NCBI GenBank assembly: GCA_947489665.1
Contig: CANLEH010000004.1
Span: forward strand, 248,001-312,000
Reading direction: 5' to 3'
DNA from: an uncultured Roseicyclus sp.
Lineage (GTDB): Bacteria > Pseudomonadota > Alphaproteobacteria > Rhodobacterales > Rhodobacteraceae
Length of the DNA: 64,000 nucleotides
Shown here: piece after piece, positions 5,166 through 25,384 of the stretch
How positions within the stretch are numbered: the first letter of the stretch is position 1
How the letters are laid out: each line of letters begins with the position of its first letter
Notes under the pieces: generated by a model
The model's input: the letters and a program-made list of their open reading frames with translations, nothing else
Told to the model about the DNA's origin: nothing
The model's database searches: none
Program-made: the position numbers and the translations under genes

Positions 5166-5813
5166 TCAGTTCGCCAAGAGCCGCAACCCTTGGGTGACAT
5201 CGGCTCGCAGAGCGAGCCGCAGACCCGGTTCATCCCCCGCCTTCAAGGCTGCAAGGATCAGGCGGTGGTGCGGTGGCGCCTCGGTCCGTCCCAAGCGGCC
5301 GTAGAGCGCGCGCATGGTCGGGCCCATCTGCAGCCAGACGGTTTCGGCCAATGCCAGCATCGCGGGCGCTTGCGCGCGCAAATAGAGGGTGCGATGGAAT
5401 TCAAGATTTGCGCGGATGTATCCGACCGCATCACGGCGCGCGATCACCTGGGCGACTTGCGTGTTGATCGCTTCCATCCGTTCGATCAATGCCGGATGGG
5501 CGCGGGGCAGGGCGCGGGAGGCCAATTCAGGCTCCAGCAGCGCGCGGATCGCGGCAAGCTCCTCAATGCGTTCGTTGGACAGCTCAGGCGTCGAAACCCG
5601 GCCCGAGGCGGACAGAAACAGCGCGCCTTCGCTCACCAACCGGCGCACGGCCTCCCGCGCAGGCGTCATGGACGTGCCGAACTCCTTGCCCAGGCCGCGC
5701 AGGGTCATCGCCTCACCCGGGCCGACTTCGCCGTACATGATGCGGGTTCGCAGGGCCCGGTAGACCCGATCATGGGCGACGGCGGCACCGGTTTCCGTGG
5801 GGCGAGGGTTCAT
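5166..5813 (-). CDS. GntR-family transcriptional regulator (FCD type)
   Basis: An N-terminal winged helix-turn-helix (about residues 12-75: YRALRTRIMYGEVGPGEAM, then LGKEFGTSMTPAREAVRRL) is followed by an all-helical FCD ligand-binding domain with His-containing helices (LEFHRTLY, APPHHRLILAAL). These regulators usually respond to small organic acids and often control adjacent catabolic genes; no target is evident. The ATG at 5813 follows the metallopeptidase stop by seven bases. Earlier in-frame starts (ATG 5837, TTG 5840) would overlap that gene. The two genes are probably co-transcribed. Confidence 0.85.
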   Translation of the reverse strand: MNPRPTETGAAVAHDRVYRALRTRIMYGEVGPGEAMTLRGLGKEFGTSMTPAREAVRRLVSEGALFLSASGRVSTPELSNERIEELAAIRALLEPELASRALPRAHPALIERMEAINTQVAQVIARRDAVGYIRANLEFHRTLYLRAQAPAMLALAETVWLQMGPTMRALYGRLGRTEAPPHHRLILAALKAGDEPGLRLALRADVTQGLRLLAN

Positions 5814-5820
5814 CAGCATG

Positions 5821-6537
5821 TCAGCTCGGGTCTCCATCAAAGCGCCAGGCCAACAGGTCGGCGCCGTTTTGCTTGATCCAACGGCGGTGGAGGTCCGTGT
5901 CAGGGCACAACCGCTTGCAGACCGCCCAGAAGCGATCCGAATGGTTCATCTCGGCCAGATGCGCGACTTCATGGGCGGCGACATAGTCGAGCACCTCAGG
6001 CGGGGCCATGATCAGCCGCCAGGAGAACATCAGATCACCCTTCGACGAACAACTGCCCCACCGCGACCGGGGGTCGCGCAGGGTGATGCGGCCATAGGGG
6101 CGGCCCAGCGTTCCTGCATGGCGCGTCACCGCCGCAGCCAGCCGCTCTCGCGCAAGGGCAGTCAGCAGGGCCTTGATGCGCGGTCCTTCCCGTGGGCCAA
6201 TGGGCACTTCGATGCGACCATCCGTGAAACGTGCGGCCCGGCCCGGCCCTTCGACGACCTCGCGAAGCTGCCCACAGATCGGAACGCTAGCCCCGATTTG
6301 CGCGCGCTGAACCCCGGGTGCGCGCTGCAAATGCTGGCGCACCCAATCCTCCCGCGCGCGCAGAAAGGCCAGAGCTTCAGACTCTGGCGCCCATGTCGGA
6401 AGGCTAAGGGACACCCGCCCATCGGCCCGGCTGACCCTCAAGGAAAACCGTTTCGCGCGGGCATTGCGGCGCACCAAAACCTCAACCGGGGGATCACCCG
6501 GCAGGACGTGGGTTGAAACGGGCGCGCGCGTTGCCAA
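5821..6537 (-). CDS. YgjP/WLM-type zinc metallopeptidase
   Basis: A 238-residue protein of the M48-related DUF45 (YgjP) group. The zinc site is visible: HEVAH (His189, Glu190, His193) followed by Asn-His (His199), then the family-typical FWAVCKRLCP helix. Upstream, RDPRSRWGSCSSKG is the conserved RWGSCS signature of this group. The start is inferred as TTG at 6537: GAGAGG lies six bases upstream, the N-terminus begins MATRAPVST, and no homologous sequence is expected further upstream although the frame stays open. The biological substrate is unknown. Confidence 0.85.
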   Translation of the reverse strand: MATRAPVSTHVLPGDPPVEVLVRRNARAKRFSLRVSRADGRVSLSLPTWAPESEALAFLRAREDWVRQHLQRAPGVQRAQIGASVPICGQLREVVEGPGRAARFTDGRIEVPIGPREGPRIKALLTALARERLAAAVTRHAGTLGRPYGRITLRDPRSRWGSCSSKGDLMFSWRLIMAPPEVLDYVAAHEVAHLAEMNHSDRFWAVCKRLCPDTDLHRRWIKQNGADLLAWRFDGDPS

Positions 6538-6543
6538 ATGACA

Positions 6544-6549
6544 CCTCTC
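6544..6549 (-). promoter_or_regulatory. Ribosome-binding site deciding a TTG start
   Basis: On the minus strand this reads GAGAGG, six bases before the TTG at 6537-6535. It is the best ribosome site near the conserved N-terminus of the YgjP-type peptidase and argues against much longer upstream starts in the same frame. Confidence 0.6.
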
Positions 6550-6636
6550 AGGCGGGATAGGGGAAAGCCTTTGACAGTCCTCTGACACTATGGCAGAGGA
6601 CCGCATCCCGCGATACCGATTATGCAAGGGGGTGTC

Positions 6637-6978
6637 ATGCCCAAAGAGGAATGGGGCGTTAAGCGCGTCTGCCCCACCACTGGAAAACGCTTCTACGATC
6701 TGGGCGCTGATCCGATCGTCAGCCCCTACACGGGCGAAGTTGTAATCCTTGAGACCGGCAAAGGCGGCGCGCAGAGCCTTGTCGCCGACAAATCCGCGAC
6801 CAAAGCTAAGGAAGCGGAGACCGAGGAAGAAGATCTGGTCCTCGATGACGATCTCGACATCGAAGAAGATGCCGACGCCGACATCGATGATGATGATGTG
6901 CTGGATGATGACGACGAAGATACCGTCGCACTTGATGATCTGGCTGATGTTGCCGCCGAAGGCAGCGACGACGACTGA
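6637..6978 (+). CDS. TIGR02300 family protein with acidic tail
   Basis: The 113-residue protein begins MPKEEWGVKRVCPTTGKRF, a hallmark of the TIGR02300 (FYDLN-acid) family found in alphaproteobacteria. Residues 1-35 form a small conserved domain including FYDLGADPIVSPYTGE. From about residue 55 onwards it is almost entirely Asp/Glu with a few hydrophobic residues, so the C-terminal half is predicted disordered and strongly negative. Function is unknown; acidic tails of this kind often mimic nucleic acid or bind basic partners, but that is speculation. It is divergent from the metallopeptidase. Confidence 0.85.
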   Translation: MPKEEWGVKRVCPTTGKRFYDLGADPIVSPYTGEVVILETGKGGAQSLVADKSATKAKEAETEEEDLVLDDDLDIEEDADADIDDDDVLDDDDEDTVALDDLADVAAEGSDDD

Positions 6979-7023
6979 TATTGGTTGAGGCCGGGATACG
7001 CGGCTTTGCAGCGATTTTTTCGC

Positions 7024-7051
7024 TTGCACGGTCCGCCGCCCGGCCTTAAAC
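7024..7051 (+). promoter_or_regulatory. Candidate promoter of tRNA-Ala
   Basis: TTGCAC (7024-7029) and TTAAAC (7046-7051) are separated by 16 bases and end 12 bases before the tRNA. This is reasonable spacing for a housekeeping sigma promoter with a short leader. The -10 box is off consensus, so the call is tentative. Confidence 0.45.
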
Positions 7052-7063
7052 CGCACCACCGAT

Positions 7064-7139
7064 GGGGCCTTAGCTCAGCTGGGAGAGCGCCTGCATGGCA
7101 TGCAGGAGGTCAGCGGTTCGATCCCGCTAGGCTCCACCA
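7064..7139 (+). tRNA. tRNA-Ala (anticodon GGC)
   Basis: The 76-base gene folds into a cloverleaf. The acceptor arm is GGGGCCT paired with AGGCTCC, with one G-T pair. The D-arm carries TAGCTCAGCTGGGAGAGC, the anticodon stem CCTGC/GCAGG holds the loop ATGGCAT (anticodon GGC), and the T-arm reads GGTTCGATCC. The CCA end is encoded. It stands alone, not inside an rRNA operon. Confidence 0.95.
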
Positions 7140-7258
7140 AGTATTTTTCGCAGAGCGAAAAACACGTCGCCCGGCAGGGGCTTTTCAACGAAAAGCTCCC
7201 GAAAGGGCAAATGGCCCCCAATATAGACACTTCCTGTGGTGCGAGTTACCAAGCCCAC

Positions 7259-8029
7259 ATGCCGTTTTCCGCAAACCTTGGCTTCCTCTGGACGGACCTT
7301 TCGCTGCCCAATGCCATCCGGGCCGCGAAAACTGCCGGGTTCGATGCGGTCGAATGCCATTGGCCCTATGACACGCCATCGCAAGACGTGGCCGCCGCAT
7401 TGCGAGAGACGGGCTTGCCCATGATCGGACTCAACACGGTTCGGGGCGACACCTCTGCCGGTGAAAACGGCCTCTCGGCCTTGCCAGGCCGCGAGGCGGA
7501 GGCGCGCGCGGCCATCGATCAATCCATCGCCTATGCGACAGAGATTGGTACGCACGCCGTCCACGTCATGGCCGGGTTCGCACAAGGGCCTGAGGCAGAT
7601 GCCACCTTTATCGCGAATCTTACCTATGCCTGCGCAGAGGCGACGCCGCATGGCATCACGATCCTGATTGAGCCACTGAACCATCACGACGCGCCTGGCT
7701 ACCATCTGCAGACGACGCATAAGGCCCGCGAAATCATCGATGCGGTCGCTGCCCCAAACCTGAAGCTGATGTTTGACTGCTATCACTTGCAGATCATGCA
7801 AGGCGACCTGACGCGCCTGCTGACCGAATGCATGCCGTTCACCGGCCACATCCAATTCGCCTCTGTCCCGGATCGTGGGCCGCCTGATGTGGGTGAGGTC
7901 AACTACCCGCATATCTTTCAGCATATTCGCGCACTTGGGTGGACCGCGCCGCTTGGGGCGGAATACAAACCCGGTGGGCCTACGGACCCAACGCTTGGCT
8001 GGCTGCGCAACCCGGCGTTCCGGGCCTAG
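7259..8029 (+). CDS. hyi: Hydroxypyruvate isomerase family protein
   Basis: A 256-residue TIM-barrel protein that should interconvert hydroxypyruvate and tartronate semialdehyde, linking glyoxylate and serine metabolism. It begins MPFSANLGFLW as family members do; an ATG at 7211 with a GAAAGGG site is a possible alternative. Metal and catalytic residues fit the family: Glu in ILIEPLNHHDAPGYHL, Asp/His in MFDCYHLQIMQGDL, the VPDRGPPDVGEVNY segment, and Glu in GAEYKP. It starts about 120 bases after the tRNA and converges with the next gene, whose end overlaps it by four bases. Confidence 0.88.
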   Translation: MPFSANLGFLWTDLSLPNAIRAAKTAGFDAVECHWPYDTPSQDVAAALRETGLPMIGLNTVRGDTSAGENGLSALPGREAEARAAIDQSIAYATEIGTHAVHVMAGFAQGPEADATFIANLTYACAEATPHGITILIEPLNHHDAPGYHLQTTHKAREIIDAVAAPNLKLMFDCYHLQIMQGDLTRLLTECMPFTGHIQFASVPDRGPPDVGEVNYPHIFQHIRALGWTAPLGAEYKPGGPTDPTLGWLRNPAFRA

Positions 8030-9216
8030 CGTTCGACGTCTGCGTCGATCCCAAGCTCCGCTGCGCGGGCGCGGATGGCGGCGACGTGACTTTCCCGCTC
8101 TGCCCCGCTCCACAAGCTTATCGTCAATTCCTTTGGGCCCATTGCGAAGATGCAGCTTTCAGCGGTGCCCGTATTGCTACCGGCAAAGATCCGGGAGCCC
8201 GCAAGGAGCGGGAAGTTGCGACCGACGCGGACGGGCGGCAGGAGCGATAGAATGACGTCGTAGGGCGCAAACCCGAAAAGCTGCCTGGGATAAAGCCAGG
8301 GCGCACGGGGATGCAGCCAGCGATGCACTTGCGTGATCCGCCTATACCACATCTGAGTGAAAAGCGGGCTTGGGCCGCGCGCCTTAAGCGTTGTGGCCAG
8401 ATCTTTTGCGTAGGTTTCGAAAGCGTCCGATTTGGGAATGCGCACCTCATCCATGCGGACGGTCAGATACTCGTCGTCGCACAGGTGTACGCGGGCTGCG
8501 GGCCGGTTCGAATAAGCCGCAAAGATCCCCTTCTTGCCGGGCTTTCGGTGGTGTGTGGTCAAGGCGAATAGAAGGTCACGCTGGCTAATGCCGATCCCCT
8601 TCGCGACGCGCTTGAGGTCCGTTCGGTCCAAAAGGATCCGCGCCATGGCAAAGTCGGCGCGGTCTGTTTTCTCGAACGCGGCCATGCTCAGGTTGATTAC
8701 CCACAGAAGCGGGATCACAAGCCAGACACCCAGTCGCGCCAATACAGGTATTCGGGCTGAGATAGTCGAACGCTCAGACCGGATCGCGTCGCGTCCACGA
8801 AGCAGGTCGGCCACATCCCCGCCTTCCATCAGGGCATGGGTTGTCTGAAAAACGATCCGGCTTTGCGGGCCGTTCGGGGAGGGAATGATCTGGCATAGCG
8901 CACGAAATGCAGGTTTGCCGGTATCGTGCAGCGGATGGCCGAGGCGATGGGACAGGTCCCGCGCCGCGATTTGCGCGTTATCGTATTCCTGGAACGCGCA
9001 TTGAGTGTGCCAATCGCCGGTGGCGTCACAGTCATGGCCGTTGTCCTGTAAAGACTCGCGCCACATCAACTGGGGTGCTGCTTCCACAACGTCGCCCACG
9101 AGCTGCAGAAACGATTCTTCCGTCACGGCACGGGGCAGATCGACCACCACATGCACAGTATTGCGTGCATGGGCGAGGTAGTATTGCAGGCCGGTGAACC
9201 GGCGGAAATTTGTCAT
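8026..9216 (-). CDS. Acyltransferase-like protein, WS/DGAT or condensation fold
   Basis: A 396-residue protein if started at MTNFRRFTGLQYYLA (a longer frame runs to 9270). The segment VFQTTHALMEGGDVADLL resembles the HHxxxDG core of wax-ester synthase/DGAT and condensation-type acyltransferases. The catalytic second His (His127) is kept, but the first His is Thr and the Asp is Glu. A hydrophobic stretch (RLGVWLVIPLLWVINLSM) follows, which could be a membrane anchor. The C-terminal GSNTGTAESCIFAMGPKEL region fits the second half of such a fold. The assignment is structural-motif based, and the substrate is unknown. Confidence 0.5.
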   Translation of the reverse strand: MTNFRRFTGLQYYLAHARNTVHVVVDLPRAVTEESFLQLVGDVVEAAPQLMWRESLQDNGHDCDATGDWHTQCAFQEYDNAQIAARDLSHRLGHPLHDTGKPAFRALCQIIPSPNGPQSRIVFQTTHALMEGGDVADLLRGRDAIRSERSTISARIPVLARLGVWLVIPLLWVINLSMAAFEKTDRADFAMARILLDRTDLKRVAKGIGISQRDLLFALTTHHRKPGKKGIFAAYSNRPAARVHLCDDEYLTVRMDEVRIPKSDAFETYAKDLATTLKARGPSPLFTQMWYRRITQVHRWLHPRAPWLYPRQLFGFAPYDVILSLLPPVRVGRNFPLLAGSRIFAGSNTGTAESCIFAMGPKELTISLWSGAERESHVAAIRARAAELGIDADVER

Positions 9217-9271
9217 ACGCGTCTTTGTGTTACCCAGCGGAAGCCTGCGCGCGATCCGTTCCACTTGCAAT

Positions 9272-9308
9272 GAAATAAGGCGCCCGAGCCCTAAAGGACC
9301 GGGCGCCT
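9272..9308 (-). terminator. Terminator of the sigma/VWA operon
   Basis: A nine-base perfect stem, AGGCGCCCG (9278-9286) and CGGGCGCCT (9300-9308), with a 13-base loop. Read on the minus strand it lies 20 bases after the VWA stop and is followed by TTATTTCATT. It should end the ECF sigma-VWA transcript before the acyltransferase-like gene. Confidence 0.7.
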
Positions 9309-9327
9309 GAACGTCATGAAAAAGGGT

Positions 9328-11433
9328 CTATTGGGAGAGGCTTTGTGCCAGGCGCATCAGCTGCACGGCCTCCTGCCGGTAACCGAACTCGTCTTCACCG
9401 CGATTGGCATTTGCGAGTGCGATCGCCTCGTCATAGCCCCAATCGCCGAGGAACTCGTTGCCGCGCAGAAGCTGGCCAAAACCTGCGATGGCAGCGGCGA
9501 ATTGTGCCTCCTGCCCCGGCTCCGAAGGTGCTGCGGGGATGGCGAAATCGACCAGCGCACTGTCTTCTTCGCCTGGCTCTTTCCAGCGCAGCGAGATGAA
9601 GCCAAGCTCATCGCCAAACTCCGTCTCTGCCCCGTCGTCAGCGGCATAGCGCAGGGGGGCAACCAACGTGGCGGGGGAGCCGACGGGTGTGACCTCATAG
9701 ATCGCCGTCACGGAATGGCCGGCACCCAATTCACCGGCATCAACCGCGTCATTGGCGAAGTCTTCACGGGCGAGTCCGCGCGTCTCGTAGCCGATCAGGC
9801 GGTATTCAGCAATGACCTCTGGGTTGAATTCCACCTGGATTTTCAGGTCATCGGCAATTGGGAAGAGGGCCCCGGCCAGTTGATCAACCAGCACCCGCTG
9901 TGCTTCGTGCAGGGTGTCGATAAAGGCAGCCGTACCATTCCCGTTCTGGGCCAGCGCCTGCATCGTGTCGTCTTGCAGGTTGCCGCGCCCGAAGCCCAGG
10001 ACGGACAGGTAAATGCCCGTATCCCGCTGCTCGCTGATATAGTCTTCCAGCGCGTTAGGATCGCTGATCCCAACGTTGAAATCCCCATCCGTTGCCAGCA
10101 GCACGCGGGACACCTCACCCTCTTCAGTCATCTCAGCTGCCAGATCATAGGCGGCCTGCAAGCCTCCCACGCCATTGGTGGAGCCGCCCGCTTGCAACGC
10201 CGTCAATGCTGCTGAAATCGTGGCCGTGTCACTGGCCGAGGTCGGCTCCAATGCCACACCGGCGCTGCCGGCATAAGTAACAATGGCGACCTGATCCTCG
10301 GGGTTCAGCCGATCAAGCATAAGGCGGAACGACTGGATCAGCAGGGGTAGTTTGGTCGGGTCGTTCATGGAACCCGACGTATCCACAAGGAACACGAGGT
10401 TTAGCGGCGGGCGATCTTCAATCGCCGGAAGCTCCCCCCGAATGCCAATATGGACCAGCTGCGTGTCGGGGTTCCACGGGGTCTGGAAGACCTCAACAGT
10501 CGGACGGAACGGGCTAACATCATCTGCATCGGGCGCGGGCAGGTCATAGGGGAAGTAGTTCATCATCTCCTCGATGCGGATGGCATCGGGGTCGGGAAGC
10601 TGGCCGCGGTTCAGGGACGACCGCAGCAGGGAATAGGCCGCCGTGTCTACGTCGCTGGAGAAGGTCGAGACCGGGTTCTCAGCCACAACCTGCACCGGGT
10701 TGTCGTCTGCGTTGGCGAATTCCTCGGTGTTTTGCGGGGTGGGAAGAGGTGCGGCGTCCTGGAAAAATCCGGTCGCGACGCGGCCTTCCTGCTGGATCAC
10801 TGTGGCGTTGCCATTGCCAAACTGAGTGATGCCGACTGCGCTGGACTCCTCAAAGGATAAGACCCCATTTTGCTCACCACTTGCCGTCGCATTGAAGCCA
10901 TTTGGTACGGCCACGCTTGGCAAAGCGATGTCGGGTGCAGCTTCAGCATCGGCGATCTCGGTTCGCGGCTGCGGGGCCGGAGCCGGAGCAGGTGCGCCAT
11001 CGGTGCTGATAGGCGCCAGGGCCACGTCATCCAGCACAAGCTCTTCGGCCTGTGCGTTTGGGACCGATCCGGTCTCTGCCTCGGCAGGCAGCGGATCAAC
11101 TTCGCTTATGCCGGGATTTGTAAGCGTCTCAGGGCCGCGCAAAAGCTCCTGCCCATAAGGGCTGAGCGTCAGGACGCCCACAGCGACAAGGGCGGTTGTG
11201 GCGGTCAATGCGCCGGTGGTGCGGGTCAAAAGCATATCAAAAGCTCCTCTGAAAAATCCCTTCTTCGGCGAAGGGTCAGAGCTTTGACGGGCCGCCTGTA
11301 GCAATCCTTGGGTGCGCGTGAAAAATTCCTGCGACCGCGCCAGTGTCTCGGCCTTGCGCGCGGCATCGGGCGCGGGCGTCGCTGCCTCCATCGCGCGTTT
11401 CAGGTCGTTGAGGTCCATATCGTCGGAGGTCAT
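9328..11433 (-). CDS. Membrane-anchored von Willebrand factor A domain protein (YfbK-like)
   Basis: The protein has 701 residues. Residues 1-60 are charged and presumably cytoplasmic. A hydrophobic segment (about 71-92) follows, then a long Ala/Pro/acidic linker to about 250. Next come a VWA-associated N-terminal region (SDVDTAAYSLLRSSLNRGQLP), the VWA domain with an intact metal-binding DTSGS, and a C-terminal DUF3520-like domain. The architecture matches YfbK-type proteins. The start codon overlaps the stop of the ECF sigma gene by four bases, so the two are translationally coupled. This suggests, but does not prove, that the N-terminus restrains the sigma factor. Confidence 0.85.
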   Translation of the reverse strand: MTSDDMDLNDLKRAMEAATPAPDAARKAETLARSQEFFTRTQGLLQAARQSSDPSPKKGFFRGAFDMLLTRTTGALTATTALVAVGVLTLSPYGQELLRGPETLTNPGISEVDPLPAEAETGSVPNAQAEELVLDDVALAPISTDGAPAPAPAPQPRTEIADAEAAPDIALPSVAVPNGFNATASGEQNGVLSFEESSAVGITQFGNGNATVIQQEGRVATGFFQDAAPLPTPQNTEEFANADDNPVQVVAENPVSTFSSDVDTAAYSLLRSSLNRGQLPDPDAIRIEEMMNYFPYDLPAPDADDVSPFRPTVEVFQTPWNPDTQLVHIGIRGELPAIEDRPPLNLVFLVDTSGSMNDPTKLPLLIQSFRLMLDRLNPEDQVAIVTYAGSAGVALEPTSASDTATISAALTALQAGGSTNGVGGLQAAYDLAAEMTEEGEVSRVLLATDGDFNVGISDPNALEDYISEQRDTGIYLSVLGFGRGNLQDDTMQALAQNGNGTAAFIDTLHEAQRVLVDQLAGALFPIADDLKIQVEFNPEVIAEYRLIGYETRGLAREDFANDAVDAGELGAGHSVTAIYEVTPVGSPATLVAPLRYAADDGAETEFGDELGFISLRWKEPGEEDSALVDFAIPAAPSEPGQEAQFAAAIAGFGQLLRGNEFLGDWGYDEAIALANANRGEDEFGYRQEAVQLMRLAQSLSQ

Positions 11434-11966
11434 TCAGCCTCCTCCCTTGTTTTCATCTCGCGCAGCATCTTCTTTGCCTCAGAGACACGCCATGCGATCG
11501 TTCCCTCGGATACCCCAAGGATTTCAGCGGCTTGCGCCTGCGTGACATCATCCAAAACCAGGGCGAGCGTGTCGCGCAGACTGGGCGACAAACCTGCCAT
11601 CGCGCTGTACAGCCAATCGACGCCCTCTGCTGCCTCGGCCACAGTCTTCTGGCGATCCACTTCCCAATCGGCCCATCCATCCGCGGCCCGGCTGTAACTT
11701 GCCGCGCGTCTTCGTCGGTCGGTCGCGGCGTTCACCGCCACCCGGTAGAGCCACGTTGTAACCTTCGCATCGCCCCGGTATCCCGCGAGCTTGCCGGGTA
11801 AGGCGAGGCATATGTCTTGTGTGAGATCCTCGGCCTCTGCCTTGGCCCCGGTCAGACGGAAGCACAGGCCGAACAGCCGGTCGTAGACGCGCGCGAGCAA
11901 AAGCTCGAACGCGGTCGCGTCACCGCCTGCAGCCGCAAGGGCCAAGTCTTCGTCACTCACATCCAT
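11430..11966 (-). CDS. ECF-type RNA polymerase sigma factor
   Basis: A 178-residue group IV sigma factor starting MDVSDEDLALAAAGG (an ATG six bases upstream is also possible). Region 2 contains AEDLTQDICLALPGKL and TTWLYRVAVNAATDRRRR. Region 4 is a helix-turn-helix with VTQAQAAEILGVSEGTIAWRVSEAKKML. Regions 1.1 and 3 are absent, as expected for ECF. It precedes and overlaps the VWA gene. The upstream gap holds an imperfectly understood dyad but no convincing ECF promoter that I could match. Confidence 0.92.
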   Translation of the reverse strand: MDVSDEDLALAAAGGDATAFELLLARVYDRLFGLCFRLTGAKAEAEDLTQDICLALPGKLAGYRGDAKVTTWLYRVAVNAATDRRRRAASYSRAADGWADWEVDRQKTVAEAAEGVDWLYSAMAGLSPSLRDTLALVLDDVTQAQAAEILGVSEGTIAWRVSEAKKMLREMKTREEAE

Positions 11967-11972
11967 GCGCAT

Positions 11973-12218
11973 CTCATACCTTATGACGGCGCGCGCGGGG
12001 CGATCCTTGGGTCGATTTCAGAAAAAAGTTGAACGAACATGCTTTCGATAATTGAGACTTTTATTCTCAAAAGACCCTTGACGAAGGGAGGCGTGCCGTC
12101 CCACACGAAGGCACTGCCCCATTGGCTGAGTCTATTGCCGTGATTGGCCATGGTGCCGCAGTGCAGAATCCCGATAGCCGGGGTACACGCGTCGCGACTC
12201 AACGAAAGCTCAGTGCCA
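11973..12218. other. Divergent intergenic region, sigma factor and TauE exporter
   Basis: This 246-base AT-richer gap drives both strands. It contains the dyad TTGAGA-N7-TCTCAA (12052-12070) and, on the plus strand, a TTGACG at 12078-12083 without an obvious -10 at standard spacing. I saw no small gene in it. Confidence 0.5.
12052..12070. promoter_or_regulatory. Inverted repeat TTGAGA-N7-TCTCAA
   Basis: Six-base arms flank an AT-only-but-one spacer in a divergent promoter region, the usual setting for an operator. A short hairpin role is also possible. No regulator is identifiable. Confidence 0.35.
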
Positions 12219-13145
12219 ATGCAGATCTATCTCCCCATCGCCGAGGTGAGCGTAAACGCTTTCCTTCTGCTGGGGCTGGGTGGGCTTGTCGGCATTCTAT
12301 CGGGCATGTTTGGCGTCGGTGGCGGGTTTCTGATGACCCCGCTGCTGTTTTTCATCGGCATCCCGCCAGCCGTCGCCGTTGCGACTGAGGCGAACCAGAT
12401 CGTCGCGTCGTCGTTTTCCGGCGTGCTGGCGCATTTCAAACGAAAGACGGTGGACCTCAGGATGGGGGTCGTCCTTCTGATCGGCGGCCTTGTCGGGGCC
12501 GCGATCGGGGTGCAGGTCTTCGCCGCACTGACCGCGATTGGGCAAGTCGATCTGCTGGTGAAGCTTTGTTACGTGGTCTTCCTGGGGATCATCGGCGGGC
12601 TGATGTTCTTCGAAAGCCTGAACGCCATCCGCAAGGCTCGCGCCGCCGGTGGAGCCGTGGCCGTACCCAAACGACGCCAGCGTGGGTGGATCGATGCGCT
12701 GCCCTTCAAGATGCGCTTCCGGACCTCCGGCCTTTATATCTCGGTGATCCCGCCTCTTTTGGTGGGCCTGTTCGTCGGGGTTCTGGCAGCCATCATGGGT
12801 GTGGGCGGCGGCTTCATCATGGTGCCCGCCATGATCTATCTGCTTGGAATGCCAACGAAAGTTGTCGTCGGCACGTCGCTGTTCCAGATCATCTTTGTGA
12901 CAGGTTTCGCGACACTGATGCACGCGACCACGAACTTCACTGTCGATATGGTGCTGGCCGTTCTGCTGTTGGTCGGCGGTGTGGTTGGCGCGCAGATCGG
13001 GGCGAGGATCGGGACGCGTCTGAAGGCTGAGCAATTGCGCATTCTGCTCGCGGTGATGGTGCTCGCGGTTTGTGGGAAACTGGCGTTTGATCTGTTGGTT
13101 ATGCCCTCTGAGCTCTACTCGATTGGCGCGGGAGCGGCACATTGA
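12219..13145 (+). CDS. TauE/SafE-family membrane exporter
   Basis: A 308-residue polytopic protein with about eight membrane segments in two repeated halves, each introduced by the family signature: GMFGVGGGFLMTPLL near residue 30 and AIMGVGGGFIMVPAM near residue 190. TauE/SafE proteins export sulfite, sulfoacetate or related organosulfur anions in bacteria where tested. The exact substrate here is not decidable. A start at MQIYLPIAEV is preferred, since the upstream extension to 12144 is not membrane-like. Its stop overlaps the start of the TIGR02186 gene, indicating coupling. Confidence 0.85.
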   Translation: MQIYLPIAEVSVNAFLLLGLGGLVGILSGMFGVGGGFLMTPLLFFIGIPPAVAVATEANQIVASSFSGVLAHFKRKTVDLRMGVVLLIGGLVGAAIGVQVFAALTAIGQVDLLVKLCYVVFLGIIGGLMFFESLNAIRKARAAGGAVAVPKRRQRGWIDALPFKMRFRTSGLYISVIPPLLVGLFVGVLAAIMGVGGGFIMVPAMIYLLGMPTKVVVGTSLFQIIFVTGFATLMHATTNFTVDMVLAVLLLVGGVVGAQIGARIGTRLKAEQLRILLAVMVLAVCGKLAFDLLVMPSELYSIGAGAAH

Positions 13146-13906
13146 GACGCATGGGCCAAACTCTCGTCGGGCTTGCAGCTCTCCTCGCAGTTTGTCTGCC
13201 TTTGCGGGCCGAAACGGTGGTGGCAGGCCTGAGCCGCGATGCGATTAACATCACGGCCAATTTCGTGGGTTCTGAGATCCTGATTTTCGGGGCAGTTGAG
13301 CGGGATGCCCCGTCGCCTGAGGGTGATCTGGAAGTCATCATCACGATCGAAGGGCCGTCCCAGCCAGTTTCCGTCCGGCGCAAGGACCGACGCTTTGGGA
13401 TTTGGGTAAATGCGGCCTCGATTGAGGTCGACGAAGCGCCGTCGTTCTACGCCGTTTCCACGACTGGACCCTTTGATGAGGCGTTAAGTCAGGTGGAAGA
13501 CCTGCGGCACCACGTTTCAATCTCCCGCGCGATCCGGGCGGTTGGCGTTGGAGTCGAGCATCCCGAAGAGTTCACCAACGCTTTGATCCGTATACGAGAA
13601 TCCGAGGATCTCTACCAAACCATCGAGGGTGGCGTCACTCTTCGTAACGAAACCTTGTTCGACACTTCGATCCGTTTGCCTGCAAACCTTGTTGAAGGTG
13701 ACTACAGGACCCGCATATTCTTGACGCGTGGGGGCGAAGTCCTCGATGTGTTTGAGCAGGATATCGCGGTGCGGAAAGTCGGATTGGAACGGTTTATCTA
13801 CAACCTCGCCCACGAACGGCCGTTGGTTTACGGCATCCTTTCGCTCGCCATTGCCATTGCGGCTGGATGGCTGGCCTCAGCCGTCTTCCGCTATATCCGG
13901 GCCTGA
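13142..13906 (+). CDS. TIGR02186 family transmembrane protein
   Basis: The protein has about 250 residues, an N-terminal signal segment (QTLVGLAALLAVCLPLRA), a long extracytoplasmic domain with ITANFVGSEILIFGAV, and one C-terminal membrane helix (YGILSLAIAIAAGWLASAVF). This matches the alphaproteobacterial Alph_Pro_TM/TIGR02186 family of unknown function. Translation starts either at the TTG overlapping the exporter stop or at the ATG at 13151. Pairing with a TauE/SafE exporter suggests a periplasmic partner of that transporter; this is inference from coupling. Confidence 0.8.
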   Translation: MRRMGQTLVGLAALLAVCLPLRAETVVAGLSRDAINITANFVGSEILIFGAVERDAPSPEGDLEVIITIEGPSQPVSVRRKDRRFGIWVNAASIEVDEAPSFYAVSTTGPFDEALSQVEDLRHHVSISRAIRAVGVGVEHPEEFTNALIRIRESEDLYQTIEGGVTLRNETLFDTSIRLPANLVEGDYRTRIFLTRGGEVLDVFEQDIAVRKVGLERFIYNLAHERPLVYGILSLAIAIAAGWLASAVFRYIRA

Positions 13907-19996: not shown

Positions 19997-21367
19997 ATGC
20001 TGACGAATGATCAACTCTCAAAGTGGGATCGGGACCATTTCTTTCATCCCTCGACGCATCTGGGCCAGCACGCGCGGGGCGAGGCACCGGGTCGGATCAT
20101 CCAGAGTGCGGAAGGCTGCCATGTGACGGACCGCGACGGGAACCGTCTGCTGGATGCCTTTGCGGGGCTCTACTGTGTGAACATCGGGTATGGGCGGCAG
20201 GAAGTGGCCGAGGCCATTGCGGATCAGGCGCGGGAGTTGGCCTATTATCACTCCTATGTCGGGCATGGCACAGAGGCTTCGGTTACGCTGTCGCGGATGA
20301 TCGCCGAGCGCGCGCCAGAGGGGATGAACCGGACCTATTTCGGGCAAGGCGGGTCAGACGCGAATGAGACCAACATCAAGCTGGTCTGGTATTACAACAA
20401 CATCCTCGGCCGCACGGAGAAAAAGAAGATCATCAGTCGGTGGCGGGGCTATCATGGCTCGGGGATCGTAAGCGGGTCGCTGACGGGGCTTTCGCTGTTT
20501 CACAAGAAATTCGATCTGCCGCTGGATACGGTCCGCCACACAACGGCGCCGTACTATTTCCAGCGCGAGGATGAGGCGCAGAGCGAGGCGGAGTTTGTCG
20601 CCATGTGTGCTGCCAATCTGGAGGCCATGATCGAAACAGAGGGGGCTGACACGATTGCGGCCTTTATTGCGGAACCGGTGATTGGCACCGGTGGGATCGT
20701 GCCGCCGCCGGAGGGGTATTGGGCGGCGATCCAGCCGATCCTGAGGAAGCATGACATCCTGCTGATCGTGGATGAGGTGATTACCGGTTTCGGGCGGTTG
20801 GGTGCGATGTTCGGCTCCCCCCTTTACGGGTTGGAGCCGGATATCATGACCATCGCCAAGGGCCTGACGAGCGCTTATGCGCCTCTGTCAGGCTCCATCG
20901 TGCATGACCGGGTGTTCGAGGTGCTGGCCCGTGGCACGGATGAAAATGGACCGCTGGGCCATGGCTGGACCTATTCGGCGCATCCGATTGGGGCGGCGGC
21001 CGGGGTGGCGAACCTGAAACTGCTCGACTCTCTGGGGCTGGTGGACAACGCGGCGGAGGTTGGCCCGTATCTGACGCAAAGCATGACTGATGCCGTAGGC
21101 GACATGCCCCATGTGGGGGATGTGCGTGGTGTGGGCATGTTGACGGCGGTGGAGCTGGTGGCGGAGCCCGGCACGCGCAAAGGCTTTGATCCGGCAGCGA
21201 AGATCGTGCCGCAGATCGTGGCGGCCATGGGCCGGCGCGGAGTGATCGCGCGGGCCATGCCGCAGGCGGATATTATCGGGTTTGCGCCGCCCCTGTGCCT
21301 GAGCCGGGCGGAGGCGGATACGGTTGTATCGGTCACACGTGGTGCGATCGCCGAAGTTCTGGGATAG
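19997..21367 (+). CDS. Class III (omega) aminotransferase
   Basis: The 456-residue PLP enzyme has the class III signature DEVITGFGRLG with Asp259, and MTIAKGL with Schiff-base Lys288. GQGGSDANETNIKL forms the phosphate-binding region. The family covers beta-alanine, taurine, putrescine and diaminobutyrate transaminases. Ectoine breakdown by DoeA/DoeB yields 2,4-diaminobutyrate, whose next step is a transaminase (DoeD), so the neighbouring position makes that activity plausible. It is on the opposite strand, with a DUF1801 gene between, so the link is inference. Confidence 0.85.
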   Translation: MLTNDQLSKWDRDHFFHPSTHLGQHARGEAPGRIIQSAEGCHVTDRDGNRLLDAFAGLYCVNIGYGRQEVAEAIADQARELAYYHSYVGHGTEASVTLSRMIAERAPEGMNRTYFGQGGSDANETNIKLVWYYNNILGRTEKKKIISRWRGYHGSGIVSGSLTGLSLFHKKFDLPLDTVRHTTAPYYFQREDEAQSEAEFVAMCAANLEAMIETEGADTIAAFIAEPVIGTGGIVPPPEGYWAAIQPILRKHDILLIVDEVITGFGRLGAMFGSPLYGLEPDIMTIAKGLTSAYAPLSGSIVHDRVFEVLARGTDENGPLGHGWTYSAHPIGAAAGVANLKLLDSLGLVDNAAEVGPYLTQSMTDAVGDMPHVGDVRGVGMLTAVELVAEPGTRKGFDPAAKIVPQIVAAMGRRGVIARAMPQADIIGFAPPLCLSRAEADTVVSVTRGAIAEVLG

Positions 21368-21463: not shown

Positions 21464-22099
21464 ATGTCTGACACACACGTCACCTGCCCAAATTGCGGCT
21501 ATGGCTTTGACAATCTTCGCAAATCCACGCGGATGTTTGATTGCCCGTCCTGCGACACGACGCTGTTTCGCGAGGGCGCTGCGCTGAACCCAATCGGCAA
21601 TAACGGTGAGATGCACGATTATCCGATGCTGCTGGCCGTGAATGACAGTGTCGAGATTGGCGGGCAGAAATGCCTGGTCGTTGGCCATGCGCGGTATGAT
21701 TATGGGCGCGGGACATGGGACGAGTTCTGGGTTGAGAACAGCCAGGGCGCGGGCGCTTGGGTGTCCATCGACGAAGGAGATGTGGCGGTGCAGTACCCGT
21801 TTTCCGGCAATGCCGGGCCGCGCCGGAGTGATCCGCCCGCCGTGGGTGAAACGGTGTCCTACAACGGGCGTGACTACACGGTGACCGAGGGCGATACGGC
21901 CAAATGTATTGCGGTGCGCGGGCAGTTTCCGGAGCTGATCCAGGTGGGGGACGAGCACTATTTCATCAATGCGTCCGGGCCGTCGGGGCAGCTTTTGTCC
22001 GGTGAGTTCTGGGAAGGTGGCCATAGCTGGAGCGATGGAGAGTGGCTGGACCCGTTCACCTTGAAGATTGAGCGGTTGGACGGGAGCCGGGTGGCATGA
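21464..22099 (+). CDS. Zinc-ribbon DUF4178 protein
   Basis: A 211-residue soluble protein, first gene of a five-gene operon. It has an N-terminal zinc ribbon, CPNC (Cys8, Cys11) and CPSC (Cys27, Cys30), followed by a DUF4178 region of beta-rich sequence (about 55-205: VEIGGQKCLVVGHARYDYG, WDEFWVEN). No membrane segment is present. Its stop overlaps the next DUF4178 gene by four bases (ATGA), so the two are likely made in equal amounts. The function of DUF4178 is not established. Confidence 0.8.
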   Translation: MSDTHVTCPNCGYGFDNLRKSTRMFDCPSCDTTLFREGAALNPIGNNGEMHDYPMLLAVNDSVEIGGQKCLVVGHARYDYGRGTWDEFWVENSQGAGAWVSIDEGDVAVQYPFSGNAGPRRSDPPAVGETVSYNGRDYTVTEGDTAKCIAVRGQFPELIQVGDEHYFINASGPSGQLLSGEFWEGGHSWSDGEWLDPFTLKIERLDGSRVA

Positions 22100-23379
22100 G
22101 CGCGTCGCACGGCCTGAGTTCGATCAACTGCACCTCGTGCGGCGCGGGCCTTTCGGTTCTGGGCGGCGGGCGTGTGCAGAGCCATGTGTGCGGCTATTGC
22201 GGCGCGGTTCTGGACACGCAGGACAATTACAAGATCCTCGACAATATCGGGAAGCGCGATCATCCGGCCAGCCCGATGACCATCGGCATGACGCTGACTT
22301 ATGAGGGCGTCGAGTTCACTGTCATCGGTACGCTTGGGATCATGGAGCGCCATGGCGGGCGAACTTGGCGCTGGGTGGAGCATCAGGTGTTCTCGCCTAC
22401 GCATGGCTATCTGTGGCTGAATGTCGAGAATGGGCAGATCACGTTCACGCGCAAGGTGCGCGACTACAATATGGGCCATTGGTTGAGCCCCTCGACCGTT
22501 GAGCGTGCCGAGACGCCGCCGCGCCGGTCTTATGCGGGTCAGGTCTACAAATATTATGAGACGTCAGTGACGCAGATTGAGTTCATGGAAGGTGAATTCA
22601 ACTGGGTGCCGAAACTGGGTGAGAAGAAGCAGGTGGTCAGCCTGCTTGGCCCGGACGCGATGCTTGGTTTGGTGAAATCTGCGCGGGAGCGCGAGGTGGA
22701 GCTGACCAAGCTGATGGATCGCGAGGCCGTCGCGAAGGATATGGGCTTTGACGTCAGCGCGCTTGGCCCGGCGCAGAAGCATCCGTTGCAGCCTTACAGG
22801 CCGATGGCCGAGGAAGGGTTGCTGCGCAAGGCGTTGGGATGGACGGCGATCGCCTCGATCGTGTTGGGGATTGTCTTCATGATCATGGGGGGACGGACTG
22901 TCCTTGATACGCCGCGCGCGACGCTGGCCGAATTGCCCGAAAGCTACAGCTTTGAGGTGACGAACCGCAGCCAGCTGTCGCGGGTGCGGTTGGAAAGCAA
23001 TATGCAAAACGCCTGGGGTGTGTTTGCGGTGGAGGTGCTGGGTCCCGACGGGAACCCGGTGGTCGCGGCACAGCGGGCGATTTCCTACTATTCCGGGCGG
23101 TCAGGTGGTGAAAGCTGGTCGGAAGGCTCGCGCAATGCCTCTTTCCGGTTCCGACCAGAGACCGTGGGTACGCATACCTTGCGGCTGGAACGGGCCGAGG
23201 GCGGCAATGCGGCGGACAGTTTCACGTTGGGCGTGCGGGTGAGTGAGGGCAAACCGACCGCGTTCTGGATGTTCGTCCTGGCCGGGATTGCAAGCCTGGG
23301 CTGGCTTTATGTCGCCGGGCGGCGCGCGATCCATACATCGCGGCGTTTTGCGGGCTCGGATTGGCATGATGAGGATTAA
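22096..23379 (+). CDS. Membrane-anchored zinc-ribbon DUF4178 protein
   Basis: The protein has 427 residues. A zinc ribbon comes first (Cys12, Cys15, Cys32, Cys35), then a DUF4178 domain (about 55-200), a linker, one membrane helix (about 246-267), an extracytoplasmic beta-rich domain (about 270-385) and a second helix (about 389-407) with a short charged tail. The cytoplasmic part parallels the preceding small DUF4178 protein, suggesting duplication with gain of a sensor-like external domain. It probably scaffolds the operon's membrane complex; this is inference. Confidence 0.8.
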   Translation: MSASHGLSSINCTSCGAGLSVLGGGRVQSHVCGYCGAVLDTQDNYKILDNIGKRDHPASPMTIGMTLTYEGVEFTVIGTLGIMERHGGRTWRWVEHQVFSPTHGYLWLNVENGQITFTRKVRDYNMGHWLSPSTVERAETPPRRSYAGQVYKYYETSVTQIEFMEGEFNWVPKLGEKKQVVSLLGPDAMLGLVKSAREREVELTKLMDREAVAKDMGFDVSALGPAQKHPLQPYRPMAEEGLLRKALGWTAIASIVLGIVFMIMGGRTVLDTPRATLAELPESYSFEVTNRSQLSRVRLESNMQNAWGVFAVEVLGPDGNPVVAAQRAISYYSGRSGGESWSEGSRNASFRFRPETVGTHTLRLERAEGGNAADSFTLGVRVSEGKPTAFWMFVLAGIASLGWLYVAGRRAIHTSRRFAGSDWHDED

Positions 23380-23382
23380 GCG

Positions 23383-23565
23383 ATGACCCCGATCAGACTT
23401 ATCATCATCGGTGGCGCGGTCATGGCGCTGATGGGTGCCTCTTACCTAAGTTACTACGGTGTCGGACGCGAAAGCCGCGATCTGGCAGCGTCAACACAAT
23501 CGATCCGTACCGGATCATCGGGCGGCGGAAGTGGCGGCTTTGCCTTCTTCGGTCGGATCAAATGA
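23383..23565 (+). CDS. Small single-pass membrane protein
   Basis: A 60-residue protein with one hydrophobic helix (about 4-24, PIRLIIIGGAVMALMGASYL), a polar stretch and a GSSGGGSGGFAFFGR tail. It starts three bases after the second DUF4178 stop, within the operon, which supports its being real. No family recognised; it may be an accessory subunit of the DUF4178/DUF350 complex. Confidence 0.65.
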   Translation: MTPIRLIIIGGAVMALMGASYLSYYGVGRESRDLAASTQSIRTGSSGGGSGGFAFFGRIK

Positions 23566-23594
23566 AGTGCCTCAAGCAATAGGAACCTTTGCAG

Positions 23595-23813
23595 ATGTTT
23601 GAACAAATCATCGTCGCTGAACTGATCTCGATGCTGTTTTACAGCGTCATCGGGATGGTGCTGATGTACATCGCCTACAAGATCATCGAATTCCTGTCGC
23701 CGTTTCCGATCGTGAAGGAGATCGAGGAGGATCAGAACACCTCACTCGCCATTCTGATTGGGTCGGTGTTCATGTCGATGGCCATCATCATTGCGGCTGT
23801 CATCCTGTCTTGA
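23595..23813 (+). CDS. DUF350 membrane protein (single-unit form)
   Basis: A 72-residue protein with two membrane helices (about 7-33 and 50-71) joined by an acidic loop (VKEIEEDQNTS) typical of the DUF350/UPF0719 family. E. coli YjfL, a relative, carries two such units, so this is a half-length, probably oligomeric version. ATG at 23595 is preferred over a TTG at 23589. Its stop overlaps the spermidine synthase-like gene by four bases. DUF350 proteins repeatedly sit beside polyamine-enzyme genes, but their role is unknown. Confidence 0.8.
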   Translation: MFEQIIVAELISMLFYSVIGMVLMYIAYKIIEFLSPFPIVKEIEEDQNTSLAILIGSVFMSMAIIIAAVILS

Positions 23814-25384
23814 GCAAGCCTGATGCGTCAGCTTCGTCCCGTGCGGAGCTGACCCCCAAGGTCGCCTGGCTGCTGGCGGCCACCTTCGTGGTGGCGGTCG
23901 CGGGCCTGATCTACGAGCTGATCGCGGCGACCATCTCCAGCTATCTTCTGGGCGACTCAATTCGCCAATTCTCGTTCGTGATCGGGGTGTTCCTGAGTGC
24001 GATGGGCGTGGGCGCCTGGGCGTCGCGCTTTGTGGGTGACGCCTTGGGTGGGTTCGTGCGGGCGCAGATGGCGCTTGGCGTCATTGGCGGTGCGTTGGGG
24101 CCGCTTCTGTTTTTCACCTATGCGATTTACGGCGCGGTTGGCCTGCCGCTTTATGGTGGGCTGATCGCGATTGGGGTCCTGTCGGGGATGGAAATCCCGC
24201 TGATCAGCCGCGTGATGAAGGAGATCGGGGCGGCGGAGTTCCGGTTCGAAAATGTCCTGACGGCAGACTATATCGGTGCGCTCGCGGCCTCGCTGGCTTT
24301 TCCGCTGCTGATCGTGCCGAACCTGCCGTTGATGTCGGCGTCTGTGGCGTTTGGCATTCTGAACCTGTTGGTAGCTGGGTTCTCGCTTTATCTGTTCCGG
24401 GACCGGTTCGGGCGCGCGATGTGGGTGGCGTGGGTCGGGTTCCTCCTCGCGTCGCTCCTCGCCTTTGGCATGAGTGAGCGAATGGTCTCCGCCGTGGATG
24501 CGAGGCTGTTTCAGGATGAGGTGATTTTCTCAGAGACGACCTCCTATCAGTCGATTGTCATTACCCGCTTTGATGAGCGCTATCGGCTGTTTCTGGATCA
24601 TGCGATCCAATTCGATAGCCTGGACGAACACCGTTACCACGAGGCTTTGGTGCATCCAGCGATGGGGTTGGTGCCTGATGTGAGGTCTGTTCTGGTTCTG
24701 GGCGGAGGCGACGGCATGGCCGTGCGTGAAGTGCTGCGCCATGAGGGGGTGGAGCGCGTGGTTTTGGTGGACCTCGACCCGCGTGTGACCGAGCTCTTTT
24801 CAACGAACCCGGACCTTGTGGCACTGAATGGCGGGGCTTTGCTGGATGAGCGGGTAGAGGTGGTGAACACCGATGCCTGGGTCTGGGCGGCGGAGGGGCA
24901 TGGGGATGAGGTCTTTGACGTCATCATCGCGGATTTACCGGATCCGAAAAGTATCGCCCTGTCGAAGCTTTATTCTGTTGAGTTCTACGCGATGCTGATG
25001 GAACGGCTGTCGGGCGTTGGGCTGATGGTGACGCAAGCCGGATCGCCCACCTTTGCGGCCGACGCGTTCTGGATCACCGAGGCCACCTTGGCCGCGACCC
25101 GCAACCCGGTGGCACCGGGGCAGGGGTTGGGCACGCTGCCGTATCAGGTTTATCTGCCGAGTTTCGGGAATTGGGGGTTTGTGATGGCCGGGCCCGGTGT
25201 GCCGGGTGAGGGACGTGCGCCGGACTTGCCCGAGGGGTTGCGGTATTTGAACGCTGAAGTTTGGCGCGGCGCGCAGGCTTTTGGGGAGGATCAGCTGCCT
25301 GCGGGCGAGGTGCCGGTGAACACGATCCAGGGGCATCCGCTGGTCGCCGCTTATCAGCGCGGTTGGGACTTCTGGTTTCGGTAG
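23810..25384 (+). CDS. Membrane-embedded spermidine synthase-like protein
   Basis: The 524-residue protein is a fusion. Residues 18-222 form about seven membrane helices. Residues 235-520 form an aminopropyltransferase-type Rossmann domain with QSIVITRF (Gln247), DEHRYHEALVH (Tyr276 region), the GGGDGM nucleotide loop (298-303), the acidic Asp321 and DLPDP. Classical SpeE adds an aminopropyl group from decarboxylated AdoMet to putrescine. This membrane version lacks the usual GPAxxL segment after DLPDP, so the acceptor may be different. It is the last gene of the operon and is followed by a GC hairpin plus TATTTT. Confidence 0.85.
   Translation: MSKPDASASSRAELTPKVAWLLAATFVVAVAGLIYELIAATISSYLLGDSIRQFSFVIGVFLSAMGVGAWASRFVGDALGGFVRAQMALGVIGGALGPLLFFTYAIYGAVGLPLYGGLIAIGVLSGMEIPLISRVMKEIGAAEFRFENVLTADYIGALAASLAFPLLIVPNLPLMSASVAFGILNLLVAGFSLYLFRDRFGRAMWVAWVGFLLASLLAFGMSERMVSAVDARLFQDEVIFSETTSYQSIVITRFDERYRLFLDHAIQFDSLDEHRYHEALVHPAMGLVPDVRSVLVLGGGDGMAVREVLRHEGVERVVLVDLDPRVTELFSTNPDLVALNGGALLDERVEVVNTDAWVWAAEGHGDEVFDVIIADLPDPKSIALSKLYSVEFYAMLMERLSGVGLMVTQAGSPTFAADAFWITEATLAATRNPVAPGQGLGTLPYQVYLPSFGNWGFVMAGPGVPGEGRAPDLPEGLRYLNAEVWRGAQAFGEDQLPAGEVPVNTIQGHPLVAAYQRGWDFWFR

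Follow-up and report, generated by a model that had tools for sequence, protein, structure and literature searches.

The system described here is a five-gene operon at positions 21464 to 25384 of a stretch of 64,000 nucleotides (the window, meaning the whole of the DNA that was analysed) from an uncultured Roseicyclus sp. (contig CANLEH010000004.1, positions 248,001 to 312,000), and its last gene encodes a membrane-embedded spermidine synthase-like enzyme, called mSpeE below. The preliminary description of the window had reported a five-gene set in this place, and the window's list of open reading frames (ORFs) and their translations returned the five genes at the positions it gave, all on the + strand, with Pfam matches to DUF4178, DUF350 and Spermine_synth. 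Gene A (21464..22099) encodes a soluble protein of 211 residues with a zinc ribbon (two CxxC pairs) and a DUF4178 domain (PF13785, 82.6 bits, residues 59–197). Gene B (22096..23379) encodes a protein of 427 residues that joins a zinc ribbon and a DUF4178 domain (PF13785, 64.3 bits, residues 63–204) to a transmembrane (TM) helix, an external beta domain, a second TM helix and an acidic end. Thus, DUF4178 is present in both proteins as had been said, and CxxC pairs mark the zinc ribbons, although the Pfam zinc-ribbon matches fall below their cut-offs. Gene C (23383..23565) encodes a peptide of 60 residues with a single TM helix and a Gly/Ser/Arg tail ending in FGRIK, and has no Pfam match. Gene D (23589..23813; TTG start, with an in-frame ATG at 23595) encodes 74 residues; its match to PF03994 (43.9 bits) spans only model positions 3–65 of 133, so it is a half-length DUF350 unit, in agreement with the earlier account. 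The junctions are as tight as had been claimed, with an ATGA overlap between A and B, 3 bases between B and C and 23 between C and D (29 counted from the ATG), but the overlap between D and E reads TTGA.

Gene E (23810..25384, TTG start) encodes mSpeE, a protein of 524 residues in which a seven-TM domain is fused to a polyamine aminopropyltransferase. Its AlphaFold2 model (pLDDT 93.5) has seven helices (residues 6–220; 23825..24469), with the N-terminus predicted inside, followed by the enzyme domain (24518..25192), which is predicted to be extracytoplasmic. The seven-helix, spermidine synthase-like enzyme of the preliminary description is therefore borne out by the model and by the full-length match of the protein to NF002956, 'polyamine aminopropyltransferase' (613.7 bits, cut-off 472); the Pfam Spermine_synth match scores 102 bits. 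In alignments mSpeE retains YQ, DExxYHE, GGGDG, DLD and both Asp residues of DLPDP, and the GGGDG, DE..Y-H-E and D..D-P columns are invariant in 67 sequences. The top Foldseek matches of the predicted structure are 1uir, 7xif and 6bq2 (E 5e-17 to 1e-16, probability 1.00). Aminopropyl transfer to free polyamines would be consistent with the family, motifs and fold of mSpeE. The lack of a GPAxxL segment had been read as the mark of an unusual acceptor, an argument that proved weak and was rejected: in the alignment Pyrobaculum 7xif, the closest enzyme of solved structure, is also without it and Medicago thermospermine synthase 6bq2 reads GPCYKL at this site, where GPAEML is retained in spermidine synthase 2e5w.

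The C-terminal lysine of peptide C (codon AAA, 23560..23562) is invariant in its family. Relatives were compared in a first set of 94 loci, composed of the best 80 of 581 confirmed matches (in named genomes), 13 loci from the window's family and the window itself; the best 80 lean towards the query, and L009 and L025 look like near-duplicates. The ORF listing of the gaps between B and the DUF350 gene shows one Lys-ending small ORF in locus after locus. With hidden Markov models (HMMs) whose seeds had been picked as the Lys-ending reading frame and then cut by their last five residues, members of the peptide family were found in 62 of the 68 loci where B and DUF350 are arranged as expected, and the C-terminal residue was Lys in 62 out of 62; in the remaining six loci the tail forms the end of a DUF4178 gene. 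When columns were anchored at the C-terminus, position −1 was 100% Lys and the next best of the last 15 columns reached 47%. Other ORFs in the same gaps end in Lys in 5 of 80 cases, and four of these five form the tail in loci where no family member was found. As controls, Lys is the last residue in 0/36 SPFH, 1/49 SpeD, 0/81 DUF350, 5/46 oxidase and 3/93 mSpeE sequences, and in 8/81 and 8/83 of the two DUF4178 types, at least six of these being tail-bearing fusions. Choosing by hydrophobicity alone left 11 of the 68 loci with no candidate and gave a first choice without terminal Lys in 5/57; all five were overlapping ORFs in another frame, and the same loci hold a Lys-ending ORF. An invariant lysine at the end of a small membrane protein agrees with the early suggestion of a lipid or peptide as possible acceptor.

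Outside the peptide family the same ending recurs on other proteins. Of the 32 loci without a family member, 22 hold a different protein that starts with a hydrophobic stretch and has a Lys-ended Gly/Ser tail (criterion: hydrophobic-start ORF, at least 7 Gly or Ser in 20 residues, last residue Lys), a count in which L067 and L095 rest on short peptides (that of L095 5.5 kb away) and L094 on a protein 6 kb away, and from which an opposite-strand Lys-ending ORF of L097 was left out. Three further loci have a peptide of 47–48 residues ending in YHK or FHK, in gaps whose other reading frames also hold ORFs without terminal Lys. Overall, a Lys-ended tail accompanies mSpeE in 87 of the 94 loci, the constant presence of mSpeE being by design, as it defined the sample. 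The remaining seven have mSpeE without partners in the DNA examined (three at a contig edge); all seven genomes carry DUF4178 elsewhere, followed by a Lys-ending peptide in six and cut by a contig end in the seventh. A second set of 39 loci, taken from 36 of the 45 mSpeE matches in the phylum (44 of 398 genomes) and 3 of 13 plasmid matches, has a Lys tail in 34 loci and overlaps the first set by at least two genomes (L119/L022 and L142/L021). When ORFs of this second set were ranked by the Gly and Ser content of the tail, ignoring the last residue, the top cluster had 12 members, 12/12 ending in Lys; one is from Alteromonas and the others are from genomes of the phylum, and 11 of the 12 show a lipobox-like start by eye. 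A blind scan for a hydrophobic start and at least 9 Gly or Ser in 20 residues, again ignoring the last residue, returned ORFs ending in Lys in 27 of 32 cases in the 39-locus set and 35 of 43 in the 94-locus set; in 136 kb of other DNA it returned one ORF, which ends in Arg. The carriers comprise one-TM peptides of several kinds, lipoproteins, DUF4178 fusions with a TM helix and a tail, and a protein of about 200 residues in a variant that has no DUF4178. Lipoproteins and window-type peptides fall apart in BLAST clusters, and remote common descent may still connect the tail carriers.

The tail and the catalytic domain are both predicted, from sequence features and models, to lie on the outer face of the inner membrane. 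In the DUF4178 fusions the zinc-ribbon part precedes the TM helix and the tail follows it; since lipoproteins are exported and the fusions place the tail after the membrane helix, the tail should lie outside. On the side of the enzyme, loops 2–3, 4–5 and 6–7 of mSpeE hold more Lys and Arg than loops 1–2, 3–4 and 5–6 in every one of the 93 sequences (8.0 on average, against 1.7), and this positive-inside pattern together with the seven helices would put the catalytic domain outside too. A seventh helix that did not cross the membrane would reverse the predicted placement of this domain.

The operon, with one or two DUF4178 proteins, a membrane peptide, DUF350 and mSpeE, was found in Acidobacteriota, Gemmatimonadota, Bacteroidota, Campylobacterota, Elusimicrobiota and Pseudomonadota. 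It is real, ancient-looking and widely kept, and a search across genomes of the kind suggested in the preliminary description finds its families together far beyond close relatives (94 loci, several phyla). Partners were counted among ORFs within 9 kb of mSpeE with HMMs made here (E up to 0.001, weak matches included; the two DUF4178 HMMs match each other's members), giving DUF4178a in 84 of the 94 loci, DUF4178b in 83, DUF350 in 81, the S-adenosylmethionine (AdoMet) decarboxylase SpeD in 49, a flavin adenine dinucleotide (FAD) oxidase in 47 and SPFH in 36. The usual order in Acidobacteriota and Gemmatimonadota is SPFH, speD, DUF4178a, DUF4178b, small peptide, DUF350, mSpeE and oxidase; DUF4178 a and b are fused into one protein in some Betaproteobacteria and Acidobacteriota. 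The one SPFH protein scanned matches Band_7_1 (249 bits) and carries a zinc ribbon. For the one oxidase scanned, Pfam gave NAD_binding_8 (46.8 bits) and Amino_oxidase (43.5 bits) and NCBIfam no model above its cut-off; the few oxidase N-termini examined by eye begin with RRxFL-like stretches of the twin-arginine motif type. Among the control genomes, that of C. glutamicum also matches mSpeE and DUF4178; the actinobacterial operon is presumably the DUF4247 variant named by Ravi (see below).

Co-occurrence was also counted in 198 genomes of the window's family, of which 14 have a full-length mSpeE, 12 have DUF4178 and 46 have SpeD. DUF4178 and mSpeE occur together in 11 genomes (expected 0.85, Fisher p 1e-14), that is, in 11 of the 12 with DUF4178; in the sole other one (G158) the DUF4178 gene lies 85 bases from a contig end. 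SpeD is present in all 14 mSpeE genomes (expected 3.25, p 2e-10) and lies at most 2.5 kb from mSpeE in 7 of 13 family loci. The enzyme travels with SpeD and therefore presumably with decarboxylated AdoMet (dcAdoMet). With respect to the two other spermidine routes mSpeE is independent: it shares 2 genomes with soluble SpeE (2.1 expected), taken as the 30 genomes scoring 141–170 bits to NF002956 with weaker matches excluded, and 4 with nspC (4.4 expected), taken as the 62 genomes at 279 bits or more with G094 (252 bits) and weaker ones excluded. None of the three is found in 99 of the 198 genomes. The idea that mSpeE replaces soluble SpeE was considered and rejected: the two look exclusive within the 46 SpeD genomes (p 3e-6) but independent over all 198, so their apparent mutual exclusion results from conditioning on SpeD. 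These genome counts give no sign that mSpeE is kept for supplying free spermidine. The window's own genome has no Spermine_synth match other than mSpeE and carries SpeD on another contig; nspC was not found in it. All five genes stand in order in 8 of the 13 family loci; C was not detected in two, both of which have a small peptide in the ORF listing, and three are a variant with mSpeE as the only one of the five found. The family variant without DUF4178 (L010, L018 and L019) consists of speD, a protein of about 200 residues ending in RSGGxxAGK, and mSpeE.

A closer inspection of protein B agrees with the earlier view of a DUF4178 protein with two helices around an external domain. Its AlphaFold2 model (pLDDT 94.7) comprises a beta-rich part, a helix (240–263), a beta domain and a second helix (390–420). 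The external domain (22885..23262) contains a stretch, SYYxGxDxGxSWSEGS, that is conserved in an alignment of 53 sequences; it matched no Pfam family and may be what reads or binds the tail. As for solved folds, no relative of B was accepted, since the query TM-scores of the listed Foldseek matches are below 0.2 (Seipin 7rsl is among them, weakly). Many relatives of B end in a conserved RW..SD motif followed by a run of Asp and Glu, and the last residue of the best DUF4178b match per locus is Asp in 47 of 83 and Glu in 19 of 83. This acidic end is a possible polyamine- or metal-binding end at the inner membrane face.

Two loci show further arrangements of the same parts. In L094 four DUF350 half-unit matches stand in a row (5698–6526, minus strand) and adjoin a protein with a lipobox-like start that ends in RFGGK (about 6563–7612, minus strand); this tandem arrangement suggests repetition of the half unit as the origin of longer DUF350 proteins. 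In L104, from an Alteromonas mediterranea plasmid, an mSpeE-speD operon (5950–13187) stands beside a gene annotated as toxic anion resistance protein, which we take to be of the TelA type, and the locus also holds DUF4178, a lipoprotein-like protein ending in SSGK and a DUF350 protein of 289 residues. A link of tellurite-type resistance to the mSpeE system is possible in this case. Upstream of the window's operon, by 96 bases and on the same strand, lies a class-III aminotransferase gene (19997–21367, PRK07482-like, 799 bits), which was rejected as a member of the system. Among the loci examined a close homologue occupies that place only in L021, L022, L011, L143 and L119/L142 (the last two being records of the same genomes as L022 and L021), so it is kept there only in the nearest relatives. 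Promoter signals were no more numerous at the operon than at the shuffled level, and the terminator-like sites, nine against 3.9 expected from shuffling, lie mostly inside genes; neither was retained.

With these elements in place, the operon may be a membrane-bound system that aminopropylates a protein, the acceptor being the C-terminal lysine of peptide C. We hold this reading tentatively, at a little short of an even chance, on the strength of statistically strong sequence patterns and of structural models. Given an aminopropyltransferase and an invariant terminal lysine, the simplest link between the two would be transfer to the lysine side chain. SpeD, whose gene lies elsewhere in the window's genome and close to mSpeE in roughly half of the relatives, would make dcAdoMet, and mSpeE would move the aminopropyl group from it to the side-chain amine of the terminal lysine, presented on a flexible Gly/Ser/Arg tail that would project from the membrane. 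This would yield N6-(3-aminopropyl)lysine, a product built on the same carbon and nitrogen skeleton as spermidine. Protein B, including its external domain, may combine with the soluble protein A and the DUF350 unit D into a platform at the membrane that displays the tail, transports the donor or senses the outcome. The FAD oxidase, which has a twin-arginine-like start and occurs in roughly half of the relatives, could then shorten the product or oxidise it. The cellular role might be to provide the envelope with a polycationic tail, perhaps under stress. The lysine as acceptor, the route of dcAdoMet to the active site and this role are the parts of the scheme that we infer.

Several observations weigh against aminopropylation of the lysine. 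NF002956 names mSpeE a polyamine aminopropyltransferase, and its fold is like that of soluble enzymes acting on free amines. As mSpeE is the only Spermine_synth match of its genome and nspC was not found there, it could be the spermidine synthase of the cell. A periplasm-facing catalytic domain needs dcAdoMet on that side, and we know of no transporter for it. About half of the loci lack the oxidase and with it the role supposed for it. No Lys tail was found in five loci of the second set, three without any partner gene (L117, L130 and L133), one with the oxidase only (L111) and a fifth (L139) that nevertheless carries speD, DUF350 and a DUF4178b-like gene. Finally, the loci are related by descent, which makes the counts non-independent.

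The first of these points lead to the alternative that survives best, although we consider it rather unlikely: mSpeE would be an ordinary membrane-tethered polyamine synthase (making spermidine from putrescine, or thermospermine from spermidine) that supplies free polyamine for the envelope, with the Lys tail as a docking or sensing element. It is consistent with the family name, the intact motifs and the fold, with the substrates of the nearest solved relatives, which by their titles take agmatine, triamines or spermidine, with the finding that every mSpeE genome of the family sample has SpeD, and with the position of mSpeE as sole Spermine_synth protein of the window's genome. However, an ordinary synthase leaves unexplained both the terminal lysine of otherwise divergent anchored proteins and the predicted outside location, and mSpeE is independent of the two other spermidine routes in a family where half of the genomes sampled (99/198) have none of the three.

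A polyamine-sensing membrane-stress system, phage shock protein (PSP)-like, has been proposed by Ravi et al. 2024 (PMC11237479); it would monitor polyamines or aminopropylation and alter membrane structure through an SPFH or PspA effector. The SPFH genes found within 9 kb of mSpeE in 36 of the 94 loci, the SPFH relative elsewhere in the window's genome (438 bits with an HMM made here) and the adjoining toxic anion resistance annotation in Alteromonas point in this direction. Against it, the window locus has neither PspA nor CesT/Tir, the one PspA match of the genome lies on another contig (C1), and sensing names no chemical step, so that we regard it as improbable as an explanation in its own right, while it is compatible with aminopropylation of the lysine. 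Least probable, in our judgement, is that the terminal lysine serves other chemistry (the FAD oxidase might oxidise its side chain, or its carboxylate might be the point of attachment) with mSpeE acting on something else: an oxidase does lie within 9 kb of mSpeE in 47 of the 94 loci and the annotated peptide--spermidine ligase of E. coli would presumably use a C-terminal carboxylate, but about half of the loci keep the Lys tail without an oxidase, and none was found in the window's genome in one protein search made without a positive control.

If the lysine is the acceptor, a large family annotated as spermidine synthase would be a protein-modifying enzyme. Hypusine is a polyamine modification of lysine, and N6-(3-aminopropyl)lysine would be a second, perhaps the first outside the cytoplasm. 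Aminopropylation of the tail would also give DUF350, DUF4178 and their SPFH/PspA partners a concrete chemical centre, and AdoMet decarboxylase a reason to be kept besides free spermidine. Put more broadly, and with somewhat more reserve, a membrane-embedded enzyme may aminopropylate C-terminal lysines outside the cytoplasm, yielding anchored proteins with a genetically encoded spermidine-like end; in that event dcAdoMet, or its aminopropyl group, would have to cross the inner membrane. Among the papers listed from the open-access literature, none is on lysine aminopropylation, judged by titles and the beginnings of abstracts.

Among known systems, the PspA-CesT/Tir operon (Shewanella AAN56744-47) described by Ravi et al. 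2024 (PMC11237479) has a seven-TM-fused spermidine synthase-like enzyme, DUF350, DUF4178 and an anchored protein, a lipoprotein with a Ctha_1186 domain, so that this kind of operon is already known. It also qualifies the earlier statement that no function is established for the set, which is fair, although a function has been predicted in print. The window's operon differs in having no PspA or CesT/Tir among its five proteins, two DUF4178 zinc-ribbon proteins and a half-length DUF350; the 60-residue peptide C replaces the lipoprotein, none being seen among the five genes. The Lys tail is not mentioned in the accessible text of that paper, and a search of the open-access literature gave no other paper naming DUF4178. 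The present work adds the rule of the Lys tail and, as far as could be seen, a form without PspA that has SPFH, SpeD and oxidase. Plasmid p1 of Novosphingobium sp. ES2-1 (NZ_CP063446) carries a similar array of SPFH, two DUF4178 genes, a protein of 48 residues ending in PSHK, DUF350 and an aminopropyltransferase; unlike in the window, an FAD-dependent oxidoreductase and speD adjoin the operon.

With the triamine/agmatine aminopropyltransferase of Thermus (1uir, 3anx), Pyrobaculum SpeE (7xif) and Medicago thermospermine synthase (6bq2), mSpeE shares the catalytic fold and motifs at 29–31% identity. These solved chains have no membrane domain and act on free amines, in contrast to mSpeE with its seven-TM domain. 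The mSpeE family reads GGGDGM or GGGDGL in the alignment, where PMC11107197 gives GGG(D/E)G(G/A).

The yjfIJKLMC and ygiBC loci of E. coli resemble the window's operon in having a DUF350 protein (YjfL, for yjfIJKLMC), a neighbouring anchored protein whose tail is rich in Gly, Ser and Arg and, on the reading proposed here, polyamine chemistry on a peptide. The kinship with yjfIJKLMC put forward in the preliminary description thus holds for DUF350 and the anchored tail and fails for the ligase, as no glutathionylspermidine synthetase-like ligase domain of the ATP-grasp class, to which Ravi et al. 2024 (PMC11237479) assign the YjfC-group enzyme, is present among the five proteins, which have an aminopropyltransferase instead. 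YjfC and YgiC are annotated as peptide--spermidine ligases and adjoin the DUF1190 proteins YjfM and YgiB, whose tails end in ARGHWGG and SRSMGG; both of these two tails close on Gly-Gly, whereas peptide C closes on Lys. By analogy, the mSpeE and YjfC/YgiC systems would reach a similar kind of end product by different routes. If so, bacteria would have converged on two means of capping Gly/Ser/Arg tails with a polyamine, the ligation of ready-made spermidine to a Gly-Gly tail by YjfC/YgiC and the aminopropylation of a terminal lysine by mSpeE.

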